From the NCBI GenBank assembly GCA_009192285.1, contig WBVU01000012.1, positions 1,426,001 through 1,490,000 on the forward strand: DNA of 64,000 nt. Direction: 5' to 3'. This stretch comes from Morchella semilibera (lineage: Eukaryota > Ascomycota > Pezizomycetes > Pezizales > Morchellaceae). The notes beneath the pieces are model-generated. The model did not search any database, was not told the origin of the DNA, and was given only the letters and a program-made list of their open reading frames with translations. Below are positions 43,662-64,000 of this stretch, piece after piece. Both the position numbers and the translations under genes were made by a program. How positions within the stretch are numbered: position 1 is the stretch's first letter; every line of letters starts with the position of its first letter.

Positions 43662-46280
43662 TTAACCATGTGCGAAAGCCCCATGACGACACCAGAAGGG
43701 ATGTGCCGAAGAAGCAAATGATAACACAAAAATGCTTAAGGCCAACAAAAGCAAAAAAAAGAAAAGAAAAACGCCATATCGGAAGAAATGCATACCTGTG
43801 CTGAAGACCCACTCATCTAAGCTTCCTATGTCCTCACTAGTAAAGGTCAAGTAAAGGTATCTGATGTTCCGTCAATAGGGTTAGTCTTTTTCTGCGGCTG
43901 AAGTATACTGGAACGGAAAACAATGAGGGGTAGTACTTCAATGTCTCGGCTGCGAACATGAACAACCCCAGCATCAGGGGGACAGATAGTCAGCATAAAC
44001 GGTCATGTGCATATGAAGCCAACGGCGGAATGTAGCAGAGCGGATCGTCATGCATAATGGTTCTCGGCAGTCAAGAGTTCATAGCTTGTGTTGTCCATCA
44101 AGGCCATAACTGAAGTTCCAAGGGTGAAGATAACTCACCTCCCCAGAAGCTCTCCGCCTTATCAATGATATTGTCTGGTCCCGAGGGTTTAGTGACATCT
44201 TTGACTTCCGCATACCCAAAATCTACTTCCGCAGCCTTGGTAAATGCGCTTTGAACGAAGGGGTTAGCATGATCAAAGATGTGCACGATTACAAAGGAAG
44301 CTTCCATGCATCATGGAAACAGCAAAAGATGGGCTCTTTAGTGAAAGACCTACTTGAACGCATCCCATGCCCATTCTTGATACATCTTCTTGCCTGTGAT
44401 ACGATAGGCGTAGAAATATGACTCTACCGTTTCTGGACGAAGTACCCATTTGGCATCCGTGACCCAGTATCCCAAATTCCTCAGTTGCTCATACTGAGTT
44501 TCATATTGCGGTTCATAAGTCGCATTAGGAGCAGTGTCTGCAGGTATCCATGAGAAGTACTCCGGGCCAATCCGAGTGGTAGTGCCGATATACGTTTCGT
44601 GGCACGCATCGATAACATCAAGACCAAATTGAACTATATCTTCTCTTCCCAGATATTTACCCCCTAGTAAGAAATTTCCACCTGCAAAACATGCAAGATG
44701 GCCCATTTCGTTCAAGAACCACCCATTTTTCCATTGGGAAAGAAATAATTTGCTTGTTTTACCCTTTGCTGGGGCCGACCACGATGCGAGGTGCTTCATG
44801 GTTGACTCAACAGCCTGTATCCATCGATCTCTGTACTTTGCTGTATTTGGATCATGCGGAGCTAGTATGTGGGCTTTGATAAGGTACTTTTGAGAATTAA
44901 TAAATGGTAAAGCTTTATCAGTTGAGAACTAACCTCATAATAGCTGTTACAATCAGACATTAGCTGCTTAAACCTTCCAAAACCGTCAATTTGAAGTGAT
45001 CACGTACGAATCATGTCCTGCTCCCCAGCTTCTGTGGCGGTCCACAGGGGCACCGGTGACGATATCAATAGGCGCGCTTTGAGCCATGCATTAGAAAATT
45101 CCACCTTCCAAGTCTTAAGATCAACTTACTCTATCAAGCCCGGCCATTCTTCAATATACCTAACCGAAATGTGTTAAAAAAAAAGAAATTAGAATTGATT
45201 AGGTCCTCAATCACCTATTCCACACCAAAGGCCTACATTTATAGCATTAATAAACTTAAATCGACCATGACTTCAAGAGAGAGATGAACGTACATCCAAG
45301 CTCGAGTAGCATTCAACTCATACTCTACCTTTCCGGTCAACTTGCTAAGAACTTTATTCTCTAGCCAATTGCTTCCAGCTCGGGCAGGTCCAATAGTTGC
45401 ATGAGCAAACCCAGGAATTGGTCTCTGATGTAAATGTTCTCTACATCCTTCATTCGTAGTGAAGTTGATTCTTGGCCATACCATACCTGTGGGAGAATCA
45501 AATCCGGGGGCAAGCTTAGTTGCCAATGATACGGCTTGTGATAGTACATCATGCCGGTCGTACTGGGAGACGAGACCCTTTGGAAGAACGCCGGCATCTA
45601 TCAGGTCGACGGTGGATACAAGCGCACCCAGGTAACTAATAATTATTAGTGGGTCGGGAGTTTGGAGCATTAACTTGGCATAACACTACCGGATTGTTGT
45701 CTCAAATGGGTCGACTAAGCCTAAGGCATTATTGAAATCAATTCCATTAATAGTAAAGTTCAATTCCTGTTTGAGTCAGTCTCGGAACTTCAAATTTTTG
45801 TCTGACTGATGGGGAATCACAAGCTTGAATTCTTCCTCCAAGCCCATTAATGCTGTCGTGGTTAATGTGTCTACAATTGTAGCGGCCCATCCATTCCTAG
45901 ATATATAACTTATTAGCACGGCTTACATCAGAAAAAAAAATTTGAAATAAGTGTCACCTCGTTGTACGACCACTACCTGACAGCGGTTTGACCTCATCTC
46001 GACCCCAAGCCCCCACTTTATATTTCCAAAAGGTCCTTTGCATCGCCCTTCTTACTTTTTCTGTTTTTTCCTTATCCTCTGCAACGACCCCATTCTCCTT
46101 GAATGGGTATTGGACCGTGTTCCGTGGCCATTTATGTTTGCTATTTCCGAACCAAGAGAAACTGGATGAAGTGCTGAAGCCTGTGCTTCCAAACGTAACG
46201 TAAAGAACGTACACAATTGCGACAGAAACTAGAGCGATAATCCGGGCCTTGTAGGACGTAGGTCCTCGTATTCTGATCAT
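43662..46280 (-). CDS. Class I alpha-1,2-mannosidase (glycoside hydrolase family 47)
   Basis: GH47 enzymes trim alpha-1,2-mannose from N-glycans in the ER/Golgi. The predicted minus-strand exons are 46280-45958, 45896-45821, 45766-45690, 45635-45294, 45232-45215, 45159-45130, 45076-45008, 44943-44934, 44886-44354, 44248-44139, 43949-43937 and 43860 onward. Every junction keeps frame and joins family motifs. An N-terminal signal anchor (ARIIALVSVAIVYVLYVTFG) is followed by TFWKYKVGAWGRDEVKPLSG, GWAATIVDTLTTTALMGLEE, PFETTIRYLGALVSTVDL, IEEWPGLI, APIDIVTGAPVDRHRSWGAG, HDSYYEYLIKAHILAP, MGHLACFAGGNFLLGGKYLG, RPETVESYFYAYRITGKK, ESFWGAETLKYLYL and SLDEWVFST. Reading on from 43796 without splicing stays open to 43662 through AHP (599 aa). 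The normal ending Thr-Glu-Ala-His-Pro suggests an intron here, but its acceptor is not canonical. The last exon is therefore unresolved. Confidence 0.88.
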
Positions 46281-50321: not shown

Positions 50322-52660
50322 ATGGCGGATCTAGACGAAGAAGAGGCAAGCTGTGCGAATCCCGAGCTTCTATCCTTTCTGAAGGAATGGTTGAGAGGTG
50401 CCCAGGGGACCAAAGCTGCTTCAACGTGCGTATCCATCCTGTCTTCCAATTGAAGTGCTAAACCGCCAACAATATACATGTATCTAGATACAACCAGGCC
50501 TACCTATCGATGAAAGCGTGCCCAGTAACCTTTCACCATCCCATGCAGGCAATCGACTTGAAAGGAATCGGCACAAGACTGGTCGAAAGACTCACACAAC
50601 GCATGGAGCAGTGGTGTATGGAGAACAATCAACCAATGCCTGAAGTGCCTAATAGAAGCGGTACGAATACTATAGAGTCCTTAATATAAGCACTGCCCGC
50701 TAAAGTACGAGAAATAGCACGTAAACGGCGTGTCGTAAACGCTAATATCGATAATATCAATGTTGCCGATATTGCTGATCCACAGCCACCAGCTCCTAAC
50801 CCCAAAAGACCGCGCAGGTCCCAGAAAGAATATGTGCCTACTTATCGATCTGGTGCCTATGGGATACTTATTGCGCTCTTGGAAGCTGGTGATGATATGC
50901 TGACCAAGCAGCAAGTTATAGAATTGGCCCAGCCTCATGCTGATGCCTCGTATATCGCGCCCCCACATGTAACAAACTTCTTCACGGCTTGGTCATCAAT
51001 GAAGACCTTGATCGAGAAGGATCTGGTTTATACAAGAGGAACTCCGGCAAGGTTCTGGCTGACAGAGACGGGCGAGGAGGTAGCCCGCGCAATTCAGGCT
51101 GGGAGAGAGCCGATTACCTATGTTCCGGGGGGCGGAGGTGGAAACGGTGAGGGATCAGGGTCCGGTCCTCGCTCTCCTCCAAGGGCCCCTGCTGAGGTTG
51201 CTTCTGCGGCCAATCCACTCCCAGAGAACCAGCCCCCCCGAAAGCTGGGTGGTGGCGGTGGTTTGCATGCTGGCAGAGACGGATATGTGCAGGGCAGTCG
51301 ACGCATTGCTGCTGAAGTTGAGGGGGATAAGCAAATATTTAGAAGACACCCACGGCCAGGGAAAAGTGCAATTGGGAATAGAGATGCGCCTCATGTGCCT
51401 TCCCCTGAGCGACCAGCAGGATACGTCGTCGTAGAACCGCGGCCAACCCTCAAACAACTTGAAGCGGAAAAACGATCCCCAGAGCTTATGGATCTGGAGG
51501 ATATCACGAACTTCCCACTACCACCACGTCCTCCGGCCCTTGGAGTAATCGATAGGAACCCCAATGTTCAATCCTCCACATATGTGTCGCAGGGCAGCTC
51601 CTTGTTCACTCTCCGGGACGTTTGTGAGGCTTCCGTCCTGCACCAACAACCCAAACCCGCACCACAAATCTTCGCTCCCTTTACCCCCGAAGTACTAATA
51701 GCAGGGACCTTCACCGTGCACCTCCTCATCGACAATCGTGAGAAACGTGCCTACAACGACCGCGAGTATATCTCCAACAATCTCTCAAATGCCGGCGCCA
51801 ATCCCATAGTCCGAAACCTCAAAGTTGGTGATGCAATGTGGGTCGCACGCGAGAATGCTGCCCCCCATAGAGAGGTGGTTCTGGACTATATTGTTGAGCG
51901 GAAGCGCCTTGATGATCTCATCTTCTCCGTTCGGGACGGGCGATACCAAGACCAAAAGTTCCGCCTTAAGAAGAGTGGCGTGAAGAATGTCACTTATATC
52001 ATCGAGGATCTTACGGTGGGCGCTCTGGATGGACATACGCTGGAGATGCTTGAGACGGCAATTAGCTCGACGCAGGTGGTAGATGGGTTCTTCGTCAAGA
52101 GGACCAGTAAGCTAGATGACACAATCCTGTATCTCGTACGCATGACGAAAATGCTGCAGAAACTCTATCAAGTAACTAACCCCACGGAATACTTCATTAT
52201 ATATCATCCACTGATACATCTCATGTAGACCCAAGATCTCTACCTCATCCCCGACCCTCTCGTCGAGTACAAGACCTACACCGAACTTCTCAACCACCTT
52301 TCCAGGACCTTCCCCACAAAGAGGTTTTACATTACTTATGACGTGTTCTCCATGCTGGCCGCTAAATCGGGCTCCTTGACGCTGCGAGACCTATTCCTGA
52401 AGTTTCTGATGGTTGTGCGTGGCATCACTATCGAGAAGGCATGTGAGATACAGAGATGCTTTCCGACGCCGGAAGCGTTGGTGGAGGCATATGGAATGTG
52501 TGCGAATGATGAGGAGAAGATGGATCTGTTACGGAAGACATGTGCAGAGGCGGTGGGTAGGAGGAAGGTTGGAAGAGCTCTTTCAGAGAAGATGGCAGAG
52601 GTCTGGGCGGATGTTGGTGATGGGTATGTCCATCATGGTCCTGAAGAGGAGTATGCGTAG
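50322..52660 (+). CDS. MUS81: Mus81 structure-specific endonuclease catalytic subunit
   Basis: Mus81 with Eme1/Mms4 cuts 3' flaps, replication forks and Holliday-junction intermediates in the nucleus. Predicted exons are 50322-50425, 50488-50660, about 50718-52171 and 52229-52660, for about 720 residues. The N-terminal helix-hairpin-helix reads NPELLSFLKEWLRGAQGTKA...AIDLKGIGTRLVERL. A winged-helix part follows (YVPTYRSGAYGILIALLEAG, TNFFTAWSSMKTLIEKDLVY), then a Pro/Gly linker. The XPF-type nuclease core has VHLLIDNREKRAYNDREYI, LKVGDAMWVAR and the metal-binding motif DYIVERKRLDDL, followed by VRDGRYQDQKFRLKKSG. The C-terminal HhH is LRDLFLKFLMVVRGITIEKA. Intron 2-3 is odd: the donor at 50661 is clear, but the nearest AG would give only 30 nt, so acceptors at 50705 (45 nt) or 50717 (57 nt) are preferred. 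Identity is secure. Confidence 0.94.
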
Positions 52661-52983: not shown

Positions 52984-53580
52984 TATGTATGTATGCCTCC
53001 GCCGCCCCCGCCTCCGCGACTGCGTGAGCGACTACCCTACCCGTTAAGACCTGACCCCCTAGGCGCAAGGGTTTCCGCCTGGAGAATTTAGCTTGCTGAT
53101 GGAGGGAGTCTCCGTTGCCCGTATCCACTTGGTTACCGAGTGATGGCCTGTGACTAGAAATTCATGCTAGTCATTTAAAGGGTAGCTGCTGAAATTTCAG
53201 CTTATTGTGACTGCGTTTAGACATGTAGTAGCTTAGCCACTACGCTGCGTGGTGAGTATTATGTACTCGGAGGCGGGGAAGATAGCAGATGGATTTGTTA
53301 GTTCATGGAGTATCACTCGGCGGATCCGCTTGAAGAAAAATGTATATATGAGAAGGTAGGCTTATGTATTCCCTTGTATGTGTTAGTCGTCTTTATTGCT
53401 GAAAAAGCGGATAGACATGGTATATGAATATATTGATTGTGCTTGTTTATCCTGGGTAAAAAAAGAGAGTATAAGCAGGGCCTTCAACACGTTACCTGAT
53501 CATCTAAACGTGTCTCTACCAAGCCCTGAGAGCGGCCAAAATTTATAAGTCCGTTCTTGGCACGTCTTCCGCCCTCCAGC

Positions 53581-53587
53581 TATATAA
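53581..53587 (+). promoter_or_regulatory. TATA box of the U2 snRNA gene
   Basis: TATATAA lies about 33-39 bases upstream of the inferred U2 5' end, a normal spacing for an RNA polymerase II start. It is followed by a pyrimidine-rich stretch leading into the RNA. Confidence 0.6.
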
Positions 53588-53619: not shown

Positions 53620-53934
53620 AGCTCTCTTTGCCTTTGTAAGTCCCCCATCCTACCTTTCACCAATCTTGATCTACCACTAATTTTGAACAGTGGCTTAGAT
53701 CAAGTGTAGTATCTGTTCTTTTCAGGTATGTCTTCTCCCTTTCCCTCTTGTTTTTATTTTTTTTTATTTTTTTGAAACAGTTTGCTAACTTGATAATAAT
53801 AAGTTTAATCACTGAAACGGTCTCCGGACCAATTTATGATTAACCTTATTTTTGGCTCCAGGGGCATTGGCTCTGTGCTTGCACATCCTCTGCCCCACTG
53901 TATCACCAGCATTACACTGCTGCTGGTTGATGCG
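53620..53934 (+). ncRNA. U2 spliceosomal snRNA interrupted by two spliceosomal introns
   Basis: U2 pairs with the intron branch site during splicing. Three pieces join into a normal U2: exon 1 about 53620-53635 (CTCTCTTTGCCTTT), exon 2 53691-53725 (TGGCTTAGATCAAG...TTCTTTTCAG) and exon 3 53804 to about 53934. The joined start CTTTGCCTTTTGGCTTAGAT and the branch-pairing GTAGTA (53706-53711) match fungal U2. Stem IIa forms only after splicing: TTTCAG, then loop TTTAATCA, then CTGAAA. GGTC-TCCG-GACC gives stem IIb. The Sm site ATTTTTGG is at 53848-53855, stem-loop III has a GTGCTTGCAC tip, and stem-loop IV is CCAGCATTACACTGCTGCTGG. Intron 1 (53636-53690, 55 nt) has GTAAGT, ACTAAT and CAG. Intron 2 (53726-53803, 78 nt) has GTATGT, GCTAAC and AAG. 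Mature length is about 180 nt. The 5' and 3' ends are approximate. Confidence 0.9.
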
Positions 53935-53966
53935 AAGGCTCTGTGGGGTTGGCTCTGTTTCCCTTC

Positions 53967-54067
53967 TTGGTCCCCTGGCTGATAGCGAGGGGCTATTGAA
54001 AAGAAACTTTTTTGTGGGTTTTTTTTGGCTTGTTTTTCTTGGTTGGTCCCCTGGCTGATAGCGAGGG
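53967..54067. repeat. Direct duplication of a 25-base unit, period 76
   Basis: The 25 bases at 53967-53991 (starting TTGGTCCCCTGGCTGATAGC) recur without change at 54043-54067. T-rich DNA fills the gap and follows the second copy, where a shortened ATAGCGGGGG appears near 54114. This lies immediately 3' of U2, so it could belong to its 3'-end formation region, but there is no direct evidence of function. Confidence 0.7.
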
Positions 54068-58807: not shown

Positions 58808-59970
58808 CTACAACTCCTTCTCCTCTACTGGAACCGAAGGCTGCTTCAAGATCTTGACGGCGTCCTTAGAGTAGACATACGACAGCCCGCTCCAGATCGT
58901 CGTCGTCGCCACGGTGTACCTACCGTCCACGGGCTCCCCGTCAGCATCCCCCTCCATCTTCCTAGGAGAAAAGGGTAGAACTTACTGCAGAGCCTGCAAC
59001 GCCGTCTCCAAATCCGCGCCCCCGCCCACGAGGGGGTGTGCCATACACGCGCCCACAAGACCCAGCTGCAGCGCCGTATTCAGCTTACTGATTGTGGTCG
59101 GATGGACCTCTGCGCTTGGGAGGGAGAAGTCCCAGTAGCGCGCCATGGTCTTTGGCGGCGGGAGCGAGATCCAGCGGAAGTAGATTGCGGAGATTGCGAG
59201 GCCGATGTCACGGCCGAGGATTATAGCTGCAAGCCAGACTGTATGGTGTTTGGGTTAGCTAGTTAGTGGGAGAGAGAGGGAGAGAGGAAGAGAAAGGGCT
59301 GGAGGGTGGGAATACCAGGAAGAAGGCCCTGCATAGCTAGCGTGACCGTCAGAATTGTCATCAGCGTCTTGTCCGCCATCGGGTCGATAACGCTGCCGAC
59401 AACGGTCTGCAGCTTCCACCGCCGCGCGATCCACCCATCAATCAGGTCTGTGAAGCCGGCGGCGGCAAAGAGACCCAGCGCCGCGGCGGGCTGGTCGTGC
59501 AGAACCAGGTACCCGATTACCGGCGAGGCGAGGAGGCGCGAGAAGGTGAGGATGTTGGGTAGGTTGTAGATATTCTCATGTGGGGTGAGAGCGGCGGGGA
59601 GGATCTTTGACAGTTTCTTCTTCTTCTGCGGCGGCGGTGGTGGTGATGGTGGGGTGAGGGTGGTTGTGGTGGTGTGAAAAGAGGTAGAGGTGCGGAGAGC
59701 ACCTTTTCTGGGGGGTGGGTGTCAGTGGTGCGCCTGTGCGCGGTTTGACTTGATGGCAGGCAGTGGAGTGAATGGTGGGGGGGGGGGGAGTAGGACCTAC
59801 ATCCTAGAGCTGAGGAGGGGGAGCGAAGGTCTGTTACCGCTGCTGCCAATTCCAATTGAGTACTGTCTCAAGCTCAGCGCACCACCCTGCCTTGTGAGTA
59901 CTCGTGGGCTTGTGATTGTGCTGCTGCTACGCACAAGTGCCCGGGGAGGAATCCTCATCGTCAACAGCAT
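58808..59970 (-). CDS. CRD1: Cardiolipin synthase (CDP-alcohol phosphatidyltransferase), mitochondrial
   Basis: The enzyme condenses CDP-diacylglycerol with phosphatidylglycerol to make cardiolipin in the mitochondrial inner membrane. Predicted exons on the minus strand are 59970-59801, 59707-59316, 59238-58986 and 58919-58808, giving 308 residues with consistent phases. The N-terminus is an Arg/Ser-rich presequence (MLLTMRIPPRALVRSSSTIT) leading through a Thr/Pro-rich linker to ENIYNLPNILTFSRLLASPV. The catalytic CDP-alcohol motif DG-x2-AR-x8-G-x3-D-x3-D is complete near residues 140-170: DLIDGWIARRWKLQTV then VGSVIDPMADK. Later parts are VWLAAIILGRDIGLAISAIY, FRWISLPPPKTMARYWDFSL, SKLNTALQLGLVGACMAHPL and TTTIWSGLSYVYSKDAVKIL, close to fungal and animal cardiolipin synthases. 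Intron 1 contains a long C run on the coding strand. The final acceptor was chosen because it joins ALQ to YTVATTTIWSG. Confidence 0.93.
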
Positions 59971-61737: not shown

Positions 61738-63270
61738 CTAGGCTTCCCACTCATATGCCTCAGGATGGTAGTTATCGATGATCCCCCCTGAGTTCCACTG
61801 CTCTGGAAGGCGAGGTTCCGGCGCTGCGACTGGGGTAACATGTTGCCGAAAGTTGTTCACTGGGACACCTCCGTCTTCATCCCTCTTCTTGGCAAATTGG
61901 TAGTTCTTTAATTCGGTGTTATTCGAAAAATGCTGGACGCTTGGTTCCATATTGGCAGGCCTCCGGTACTGATACGGGGGCTCGCCTGAGAAGGGAACAC
62001 TCCCATTTGGCATAGATCGCGGCTCGTGGGCGGGAAGCATCGACCGTGACTGTTCCTGTGGGGGTTGATAGGCAGGATGGTATATTGGCTCTGGTTGGGG
62101 GTACAATGAGAAAATGTTGCTATCCTGTGGGATGGCAGGTTCCTGCAGCGGTTGGAATGTTGCCGTCTCAGAGAGTTGTTGTTGGAAAGGCATCGTGCAT
62201 AACTGCATATGCGGATGGGTCGGCATTTGTTGCTGAAGATGCTGATGCTGCAATGGGGGAAATGATTGTTGCTGCAGAAATTGCTGGTGATGATGCTGGT
62301 GGTGGTGCTGTTGCTGCTGCTGCTGATGTAACAGTTGCTGATGCTCGTACGGTATGTCAACAATCTCGGTTCTGTATCCACTGTGGGAATTTCGTAGTGG
62401 CAGTGGTAGCTGACGCTCTGGTGGAGGCTCCAGCGGATGCTGTATATCACCAATATCACTTGAACCGCTATCGTATACACTGACTTCCATGTCCTGCATT
62501 CCGTCCTTATCGTCATCGTACAGTGGCTGCCCGTCCTTATCGTACCTTCCAGAAACATCAATGTGATGTTTATATCTGGGGTTCATGTCGGCCACGGCTC
62601 TCACATCAAGATCCCTGAGGTATGGGAAGGCTTCCTCAGGTCGCCTCAGTGTCTTATTTAAGACATCCGATATCTTGAAATAGGCCACGATGTGATACTT
62701 ATTCTGATCGATGGTGACCGCCAAAGTCTTCTTGCATAAGCCATCCTCCTTGAAGAGGTAGGAGTCATGAAGTGACCCCACCACAGCCTTCCTCTCCTCA
62801 GGGCGGAGAGCCTGGAGCAGTGGATCCAGCGTTGGCAAATCCTGGCCCATTTCCTGCGGAGACGCAGAGCCGTCAAGATGGCCATCGCCCTGATCATGAC
62901 CATGAGAAGACGGTCGACCTGACGGATATGGTTGCATTCGTGGATTTCTAGCATTCGGCCTGATAACCCTTCTTCCACCAGGTTTGAACTTGTCAAACAC
63001 CTCACGATAGACCAGAAGGTTTGTCATGGCCCTACTAGGGCTCCACCGAATGCTGTCCGTCCATCTCTTTATCCGGGATTCGTTCTCCTCGTAGACAAAC
63101 ACATTTCCAGACTTGATCAGGTCTGCGCGTTCGTTGTCCAGCGGGCGGCGCAGTACGCACTGGAAAATGCGCTTTTCACATGCTTTGACGATCTTGAGAG
63201 CGTCCGCCGTTGATTCAATGGTGATTCCTGAGACGGTAGGACACACAGGCTGATTTACGTGTGAGGACAT
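61738..63270 (-). CDS. WOPR-domain (Gti1/Pac2 family) transcriptional regulator
   Basis: WOPR proteins (Wor1, Ryp1, Mit1, Gti1, Pac2) are fungal DNA-binding regulators of morphology, nutrient response and virulence or toxin programmes. One uninterrupted frame of 510 residues runs from ATG 63268-63270 to TAG 61738-61740. WOPR part a is near residues 14-100: GITIESTADALKIVKACEKR, VLRRPLDNERADLIKSGNVF, VYEENESRIKRWTDSIRWSP and SRAMTNLLVYREVFDKFKPG. Part b is near residues 168-215: SLHDSYLFKEDGLCKKTLAV then YHIVAYFKISDVLNKTL. The linker and C-terminus are disordered, with a Gln/His tract at about residues 305-345 and Pro-rich stretches. The invariant GIKRWTDG of most members is SRIKRWTDS here and ILGNFL is AMTNLL, so it sits away from typical Wor1 and Pac2. 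Subfamily is undecided. Confidence 0.9.
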   Translation of the reverse strand: MSSHVNQPVCPTVSGITIESTADALKIVKACEKRIFQCVLRRPLDNERADLIKSGNVFVYEENESRIKRWTDSIRWSPSRAMTNLLVYREVFDKFKPGGRRVIRPNARNPRMQPYPSGRPSSHGHDQGDGHLDGSASPQEMGQDLPTLDPLLQALRPEERKAVVGSLHDSYLFKEDGLCKKTLAVTIDQNKYHIVAYFKISDVLNKTLRRPEEAFPYLRDLDVRAVADMNPRYKHHIDVSGRYDKDGQPLYDDDKDGMQDMEVSVYDSGSSDIGDIQHPLEPPPERQLPLPLRNSHSGYRTEIVDIPYEHQQLLHQQQQQQHHHQHHHQQFLQQQSFPPLQHQHLQQQMPTHPHMQLCTMPFQQQLSETATFQPLQEPAIPQDSNIFSLYPQPEPIYHPAYQPPQEQSRSMLPAHEPRSMPNGSVPFSGEPPYQYRRPANMEPSVQHFSNNTELKNYQFAKKRDEDGGVPVNNFRQHVTPVAAPEPRLPEQWNSGGIIDNYHPEAYEWEA

Positions 63271-64000
63271 TTTTGATGACGAGACGAGGGGTGGGTGGGT
63301 GGGGTGAGTAAATAAAGTCCGACTGAGGAGAAGGGGAGAAAAGGTTGTGAGGGATAGAGGTTGGTGTCAGGTGAGAGAGTGTGAGAGAGGTTGTAGCAGA
63401 AGAAGGAAGAGGAGGAGTAATAGCAGGGGAGCTAAGATATCCTTATTTTTTTGACAGTAAGACAGGTGTGGGGTGTGAACACGGCCAAAGACGGCTCAAA
63501 ATTGATTCACCCCGATGAACCAGCAGAGGTGAAAATCGGAGGAACTGGGGGGGCAGACAGACAGACAGACAGCTGGCTAAGCTAGGTGTGGTGAGACTAA
63601 ACAAGCAGATCGGAATTGCAACACCTCAACTCAACCCGAAGAAATCTCAAGATAGGTGAGGGTGAAATTTATGGAAAACGAGAGAAAGAGAAAGGGAGTG
63701 AGTGAGGAGGATAGGGGCGAGGTGATAGAAAGATGAGAAAGTGGGAGACTTAGAGGGAGTGAGGGAGTATGAGGGAGAGGGTGATGTGGGTGAGGGTGAG
63801 GGTAAGGCTGGAAAGAGGAAGATTGCAAGCCGTAATAAGAGGGCAACAAGGCAGCTAGACGAACTTGTTGATTGGGCAAGTAAATGGCGGACTCTACGCT
63901 GGAAACAAGAAGAGTACTGTGAGAGAAATCCGCTTCCACTCTGTCCGTCTCCCGCCCTTTTCCGCTTCCACTCGTCCTATTCAATTCCTGCGTTCTATCA
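63271..64000. promoter_or_regulatory. Upstream region of the WOPR gene
   Basis: Presumed promoter and 5' leader, strongly purine-skewed on the plus strand (GA-rich, so CT-rich in the sense of the gene) around 63270-63430 and 63650-63800. It contains a short GACA repeat near 63556-63571. The long open frame here (63631-63984, minus) is a product of the pyrimidine bias. Confidence 0.5.

Follow-up and report, generated by a model that had tools for sequence, protein, structure and literature searches.

U2 snRNA genes interrupted by U2-type spliceosomal introns in Morchella semilibera

Introduction

U2 snRNA is a component of the spliceosome that helps remove introns from messages. An apparent U2 gene split by two introns of the very type that the spliceosome removes, found in a 64-kb stretch of Morchella semilibera DNA (hereinafter the window), raises the question of whether the production of U2 in this fungus could itself depend on U2, or whether the locus is an oddity or a dead copy.

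According to the excerpted text of a 2017 survey, frequent interruption is known among small structured RNAs only for U3 and U6, with U3 introns occurring in the vast majority of Pezizomycotina (PMC5832005). The excerpts on U6 state that the fission yeast intron lies near the catalytic nucleotides, and is hence thought to have arisen by reverse splicing, and that U6 introns are also present in other fungi (PMC10484740; Canzler 2016 as cited in PMC5832005). Here we describe the window gene, the U2 family to which it belongs and the alternatives to the reading that its products are matured by splicing.

A U2 gene split by two introns

The window contains a U2 snRNA gene on the plus strand (53620–53936), with its exons separated by intervals of 55 and 78 nt (Table 1). 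No Rfam family other than U2 (RF00004) exceeds its gathering score anywhere in the window; the U2 model matches the unspliced DNA at 53673–53941 with 85.9 bits against a gathering score of 46. The alignment stops short of exon 1 because the 55-nt interval comes after it, and at loop IIa it places 85 letters against 7 in the model; the boundary of exon 3, i.e., the mature 3′ end, is approximate, with the Rfam match extending 5 nt further. Removal of 53636–53690 and 53726–53803 yields a canonical U2, as the original prediction had it: 44 of the 45 upper-case Rfam consensus positions (model positions 5–62) are kept and one deviates. The conserved 5′ domain, including the U6-pairing segment and the GUAGUA branch-binding site, is present after this removal. 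We take exon 2 to provide both of these, the latter as GTAGTA at 53706–53711.

We compared the introns with the criteria for major (U2-type) introns given in the excerpted text of PMC5832005, namely a GTRWGT donor, an RCTRAY branch site 6–36 nt before the acceptor and a YAG acceptor. Both donors (GTAAGT and GTATGT) and both branch sites (ACTAAT and GCTAAC, 10 and 15 nt before their acceptors) fit these, as does the CAG acceptor of intron 1. The AAG acceptor of intron 2 does not; it is the first AG past the branch site and is common to the other two-intron gene, L007. Under a rule comprising GTRNGT, CTRAY and the first AG 6–40 nt past the branch A, which was formulated after the introns had been seen and hence yields figures of rarity rather than a blind test, one of 127,890 55-mers and one of 127,844 78-mers on the two strands of the window qualify. 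These start at 53636 and 53726, i.e., they are introns 1 and 2, so that the mRNA-type signals originally described for both intervals are confined to them at these lengths; chance occurrence of the signals was rejected on this count. The claim that the joins in stem-loop I and stem IIa are exact to the base is borne out by natural empty sites in paralogs: L004 has them for both introns and L001–L003 show the exact join for intron 2.

Table 1. Features of the window (positions counted from its first letter)
Feature	Position	Strand	Remarks
GH47 mannosidase	44353–45685	−	
MUS81-like nuclease	50690–52657	+	
Upstream element CGGCCAAA	53533–53540	+	87 nt before exon 1
Second upstream element TGGCAC	53558–53563	+	[TG]GGC[AG]C at −59 to −62 in 5 of 7 U2 loci
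TATA box TATATA	53581–53586	+	39 nt before exon 1
U2 exon 1	53620–53635	+	5′ half of stem-loop I; joined directly to exon 2 in intronless L004
Intron 1 (55 nt)	53636–53690	+	GTAAGT...ACTAAT (53676–53681)...CAG; same position in L001, L002, L003, L007
Intron 1 segment CTTGATCTA (9 nt)	53665–53673	+	complementary to exon 2, 53696–53704
U2 exon 2	53691–53725	+	3′ half of stem-loop I, 5′ strand of stem IIa
Intron 2 (78 nt)	53726–53803	+	GTATGT...GCTAAC (53784–53789)...AAG; same position in L007; degenerate in L006
U2 exon 3	53804–53936	+	3′ strand of IIa, IIb, Sm-site region, stems III and IV
Downstream hairpin	53972–53992	+	conserved G.G mismatch; candidate 3′-processing signal
Second copy of downstream hairpin	54049–54067	+	
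CDP-alcohol phosphatidyltransferase	59266–59721	−	
Gti1/Pac2 family regulator	61741–63366	−	

A dispersed family of interrupted U2 genes

A search of the assembly (56,756,124 bases, 23 contigs) with the U2 model recovered seven U2 loci on six contigs. The split gene that was predicted is thus real, but it does not stand alone: five genes share intron 1, two of them intron 2, and one further locus is degenerate. Intron 1 lies at the same base in all five canonical genes, occurring by itself in L001 (86 nt), L002 (64 nt) and L003 (71 nt) and together with intron 2 in the window gene (L005; 55 and 78 nt) and L007 (49 and 83 nt). L004 has neither intron. In the degenerate L006, exon 1 is unrecognizable, a remnant of the intron 1 acceptor persists, the 66-nt intron 2 fails the signal rule and most of stem-loop III is gone; it deviates at 14 of the 45 conserved positions, 9 of these stemming from the unrecognizable exon 1, while the canonical genes deviate at 1–2 each. 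A conserved U2 core pattern with up to two mismatches gave 10 matches, comprising the same seven loci and three places without a U2 model match (L024–L026), which were rejected as U2 genes as they show no U2 at E 0.1. The exact core pattern had no matches in the viral_contigs and genome_contigs sets.

The splice signals are conserved across the family. All five copies of intron 1 have GTAAGTC, a CTAA[CT] branch site and a YAG that is the first AG, 10–11 nt past the branch A; both canonical copies of intron 2 have GTATGT or GTAAGT, GCTAAC and an AAG, in L005 and L007 respectively 15 and 14 nt past the branch A. Overall, the full signal set is present in seven of the eight delimited introns, the exception being that of the decayed L006. 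In all 12 pairs sharing an intron, the exons resemble each other more closely than the introns do: L005 and L007 have identities of 0.90 in exons, 0.73 in intron 1 and 0.67 in intron 2, and L001–L003 of 0.91–0.95 in exons and 0.61–0.71 in intron 1.

A mismatch-free match to exon 1 plus donor (CTCTCTTTGCCNNTGTAAGT) is present at exactly five places genome-wide, all of them U2 genes; the remaining 50 matches have 2–3 mismatches each, and a reversed control gave 63 matches. These five places, together with the seven loci, led us to reject a lone odd gene copy. The joined canonical stem-loop I (CTCTTTGCCTTTTGGCTTAGATC) has no occurrence at up to three mismatches in the whole assembly, and L004 evades this pattern through a one-base deletion. 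The assembly thus contains no canonical uninterrupted U2, only one variant intronless locus, and therefore every assembled canonical U2 gene would need splicing. The original prediction had named an intact intronless U2 elsewhere that carries all expression, together with a lack of reads across the two junctions, as the sign of a pseudogene or dead copy; with the variant L004 as the only intronless locus in the assembly, that reading is unlikely but keeps a small residual probability.

About 22 kb separates L005 from L007; both are on contig C11, in opposite orientation and with homology only around the genes. More generally, blastn (1e-5) on 10-kb stretches around each gene plus 19 kb of the window found inter-locus matches solely around the U2 genes, none longer than 391 bp, and segmental or allelic duplication was rejected as the source of the seven loci. 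No match was obtained for the C21 stretch that corresponds in coordinates to L002 (blastn, 1e-5). As a separate observation, the contig pairs C9/C10 and C21/C22 carry matches at near-equal coordinates (U5 and U3 on C9/C10, pattern matches on both pairs), which suggests that these pairs are partly duplicated or haplotypic.

Promoter-like elements and a downstream hairpin

The family shares flanking elements on both sides. TATATA (five loci) or TATTTAA (one) is found at −38/−39 of exon 1 in six of the seven U2 loci. Exact CGGCCAAA is present in four loci, all canonical, with GGTCAAA in L002 and none in L004 and L006; GGCCAAA is also found upstream of three of the five U1 loci. Downstream, all seven loci (L001–L007) have a hairpin with a covarying stem, in which 9 of 15 pairs are changed on both sides. 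The hairpin motif has a background in the 64-kb window of five on the plus strand, two of these being the U2 copies, and four on the minus strand. A similar motif lies 3′ of four of the five U1 loci and of the one U4 locus (L009–L012, L016); both U5 loci have a scan match that is farther away and has a longer loop. A scan of the 3′ flanks of the four U3 loci and the one U6 locus found no such motif.

RNA structure and intron–exon complementarity

With both introns removed, the RNA of the window gene is predicted to fold better than its shuffles (z −3.8; 1 of 200 shuffles as good), with stems I, IIb, III and IV present and IIa absent in the minimum-energy fold; the six tested pairs of stem-loop I have probabilities of 0.86–1.0. 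The unspliced RNA, folded over 53620–53927 and thus 9 nt short of the exon 3 end, reaches z −4.2 but lacks the six-pair stem-loop I. In its predicted fold, the intron 1 acceptor region is paired, which could slow splicing.

In alignment A1, which comprises six of the seven copies and omits L006, a 41-pair U2 structure with stems I, IIa, IIb, III and IV (50 predicted pairs minus 9, in columns 28–36 with 97–105, that correspond to no known U2 helix) is paired in 95.1% of 243 cells, and stem IV is 100% paired despite differing letters. Changes on both sides occur at nine pairs, as compared to a shuffle mean of 3.5, with none of 500 shuffles as high. Sliding the partners lowers pairing to 33–48%, a control biased toward the structure, which was derived from an RNAalifold prediction on the same alignment. 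By two other measures there is no signal in these copies: the RNAalifold covariation term is 0.14 kcal/mol, i.e., no gain, and further pair types are no better than in shuffles, 187 of 500 being as high.

The two double-intron genes also share a complementarity between intron 1 and exon 2. A complement as long as the 9-nt one of L005 arose in 9 of 2000 shuffled introns, and one as long as the 8-nt complement of L007 in 26 of 2000; in L001–L003 the longest is 4–5 nt. In both L005 and L007 it falls around TAGATCAAG of exon 2, and as long as the RNA is unspliced it might keep the U6-pairing segment masked. Because the two copies are related, this amounts to one observation.

The intronless locus and competing explanations

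L004 is the main weak point of any claim that U2 is fully self-dependent. It has an uninterrupted full-length U2 match of 109.3 bits and retains the TATA box at −39, the 3′ hairpin and a paired stem IV, all as expected if it supplied most of the working U2, with the interrupted genes minor or silent. It deviates, however, at 3 of the 45 conserved positions (U15 deleted, U17C, C28A), more than any canonical gene, and is without the CGGCCAAA element. C28 presumably belongs to the AUC that forms helix Ia with the GAU of U6, and the one U6 gene found retains the matching GAU. Moreover, the functional segments are kept in five diverged interrupted genes, which silence would not preserve. We therefore regard a dominant L004 as unlikely. 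Judging from its sequence, L004 may still make usable U2 and supply some of that in the cell; it could represent a weak variant, be kept as a safeguard or be in the course of decay. Its origin may be ancestral or lie in precise intron loss, a plain processed retrocopy being unlikely because the TATA box is retained.

The assembly may lack further U2 copies, and a canonical intronless gene outside it would render the interrupted genes non-essential. The ribosomal DNA does appear to be poorly assembled: there is no 5.8S match above cut-off in the assembly, the only one reaching 39.5 bits for a family that also matched 9 of 14 prokaryote controls. Yet with seven U2 loci on six contigs, none of them both canonical and uninterrupted, such a copy would need to be the one U2 left out of the assembly, which makes this explanation quite improbable. 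Decayed copies such as L006 do occur, and the interrupted loci might by extension be defunct copies or unspliced insertions; against this, five copies retain exons, stems and splice signals although their flanks are unrelated and their introns have diverged, and the exact upstream element is kept in four of the five interrupted genes, so that we give this reading very little weight. Finally, a short U2 starting in exon 2 and lacking stem-loop I, with intron 1 as mere upstream sequence, would agree with the start of the Rfam match within intron 1 (53673) but was rejected as scarcely credible, given that the five canonical genes and L004 agree in all of the first 13 nt of exon 1, that L004 joins exon 1 directly to exon 2, and that the TATA box keeps a constant distance to exon 1 whereas its distance to exon 2 changes with the length of the intron (49–86 nt).

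We accordingly favor, at a probability of roughly 84%, the explanation that the window gene is an active member of a dispersed U2 family in which each canonical copy has one or two U2-type spliceosomal introns. Counted against it are the AAG acceptor of intron 2, the existence of L004, the possible incompleteness of the assembly, the lack of stem IIa in the predicted fold of the window gene's spliced RNA, the weak covariation measures and the paired acceptor region of intron 1. We infer transcription (by polymerase II), splicing, 3′ processing and spliceosomal use of the product from sequence. In this scheme, transcription would initiate at exon 1 from the TATA promoter and the upstream element common to U1 genes; pre-existing U2 snRNPs would excise intron 1 from the loop of stem-loop I and intron 2 from the stem/loop edge of IIa; and the 3′ end would form near the conserved downstream hairpin. 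New U2 would then depend on old U2 in an autocatalytic loop passed from cell to cell. The earlier proposal that this U2 needs U2 to mature gains support from the two mRNA-type introns in a U2 gene. A stronger version, in which no intron-independent U2 is made and the intron 1 hairpin of the double-intron genes masks 53696–53704 until splicing, thereby blocking pairing of pre-U2 with U6, is tentative, and we consider it rather less probable than its negation.

Order and origin of the introns

The exon tree is unrooted and has seven rows, with L006 partial and long-branched. One branch (81/89) sets apart L005, L006 and L007, which have intron 2, and another (88/90) sets apart L001–L003, which have only intron 1; no branch attains the 95/80 threshold. 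Intron content is explicable on this tree by two changes; thus intron 1 is probably older than intron 2, or has spread more widely. Both insertion sites would fit entry by reverse splicing. A search for close copies of the window intron 2 found only itself and also missed its 67%-alike relative in L007, so for intron 2 an introner-like source is excluded only as far as close copies go.

Relation to other interrupted small RNAs

One precedent comes from Rhodotorula hasegawae, which we take to be a basidiomycete yeast. Its U2 gene has been reported to contain an mRNA-type intron (Takahashi et al. 1993, as cited in the excerpted text of PMC2586383), so a U2 intron as such is not new. The Morchella genes likewise have a spliceosomal intron inside a U2 gene; as far as the excerpt describes the yeast gene, they differ in having two introns, in several genes, with a series of zero, one and two introns in one genome. 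The original statement that no precedent was known for U2 in filamentous ascomycetes agrees with the literature matches listed, none of which reports an intron in an ascomycete U2. The fungal U6 introns, in the passages cited above, are likewise mRNA-type introns in a core snRNA; they concern a different snRNA, and the one U6 gene here is intronless. The fungal U3 introns resemble ours in being short, with GTRWGT...RCTRAY...YAG, near the 5′ end, and in having paralogs with and without introns (excerpts of PMC5832005), whereas U3 is not part of the spliceosome and three U3 loci here have no intron. Relative to these precedents, the apparent novelty lies in U2-type introns at two sites of U2 genes, one of which is occupied in every canonical member of the family.

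If confirmed, this would mean that a core spliceosome RNA relies on splicing for its entire canonical supply, and that one genome holds U2 paralogs with zero, one and two introns at identical bases. Splicing-dependent U2 would exert positive feedback on its own supply; were it wholly self-dependent, the spliceosome would be a heritable autocatalytic state with no restart once U2 is lost. Entry of the introns by reverse splicing, buffering of the U2 feedback and a role of the intronless variant as a safeguard become testable questions.

Other RNAs and neighboring genes

Among the RNAs examined, the introns are specific to U2. U6 (one locus), U4 (one), U5 (two) and U1 (five) gave end-to-end model matches with no intron-sized insert, the two U5 loci being perhaps on duplicated contigs. 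Four U3 loci match the Fungi_U3 model above cut-off; three of these (L058, L059 and L061) have no intron near the 5′ end, and the fourth, L060 on C10, equals L059 in score. The lack of a 5′ intron in U3 runs contrary to most Pezizomycotina as described in the excerpts of PMC5832005. The five U1 loci (L009–L013) are diverged, two of them scoring above the Rfam cut-off and L013 lowest with 47.7 bits. On C19, L062 (C19:2699587–2699758) is a truncated stretch resembling 5.8S rRNA that falls below the Rfam cut-off.

The neighboring protein-coding genes are listed in Table 1. For the GH47 fragment, the best-matching PDB chains are 2ri8 (143 bits), 1kkt (143 bits) and 1hcu (118 bits), all three presumably Pezizomycotina enzymes, which weakly favors a filamentous ascomycete as the host; the next match is at 71 bits.
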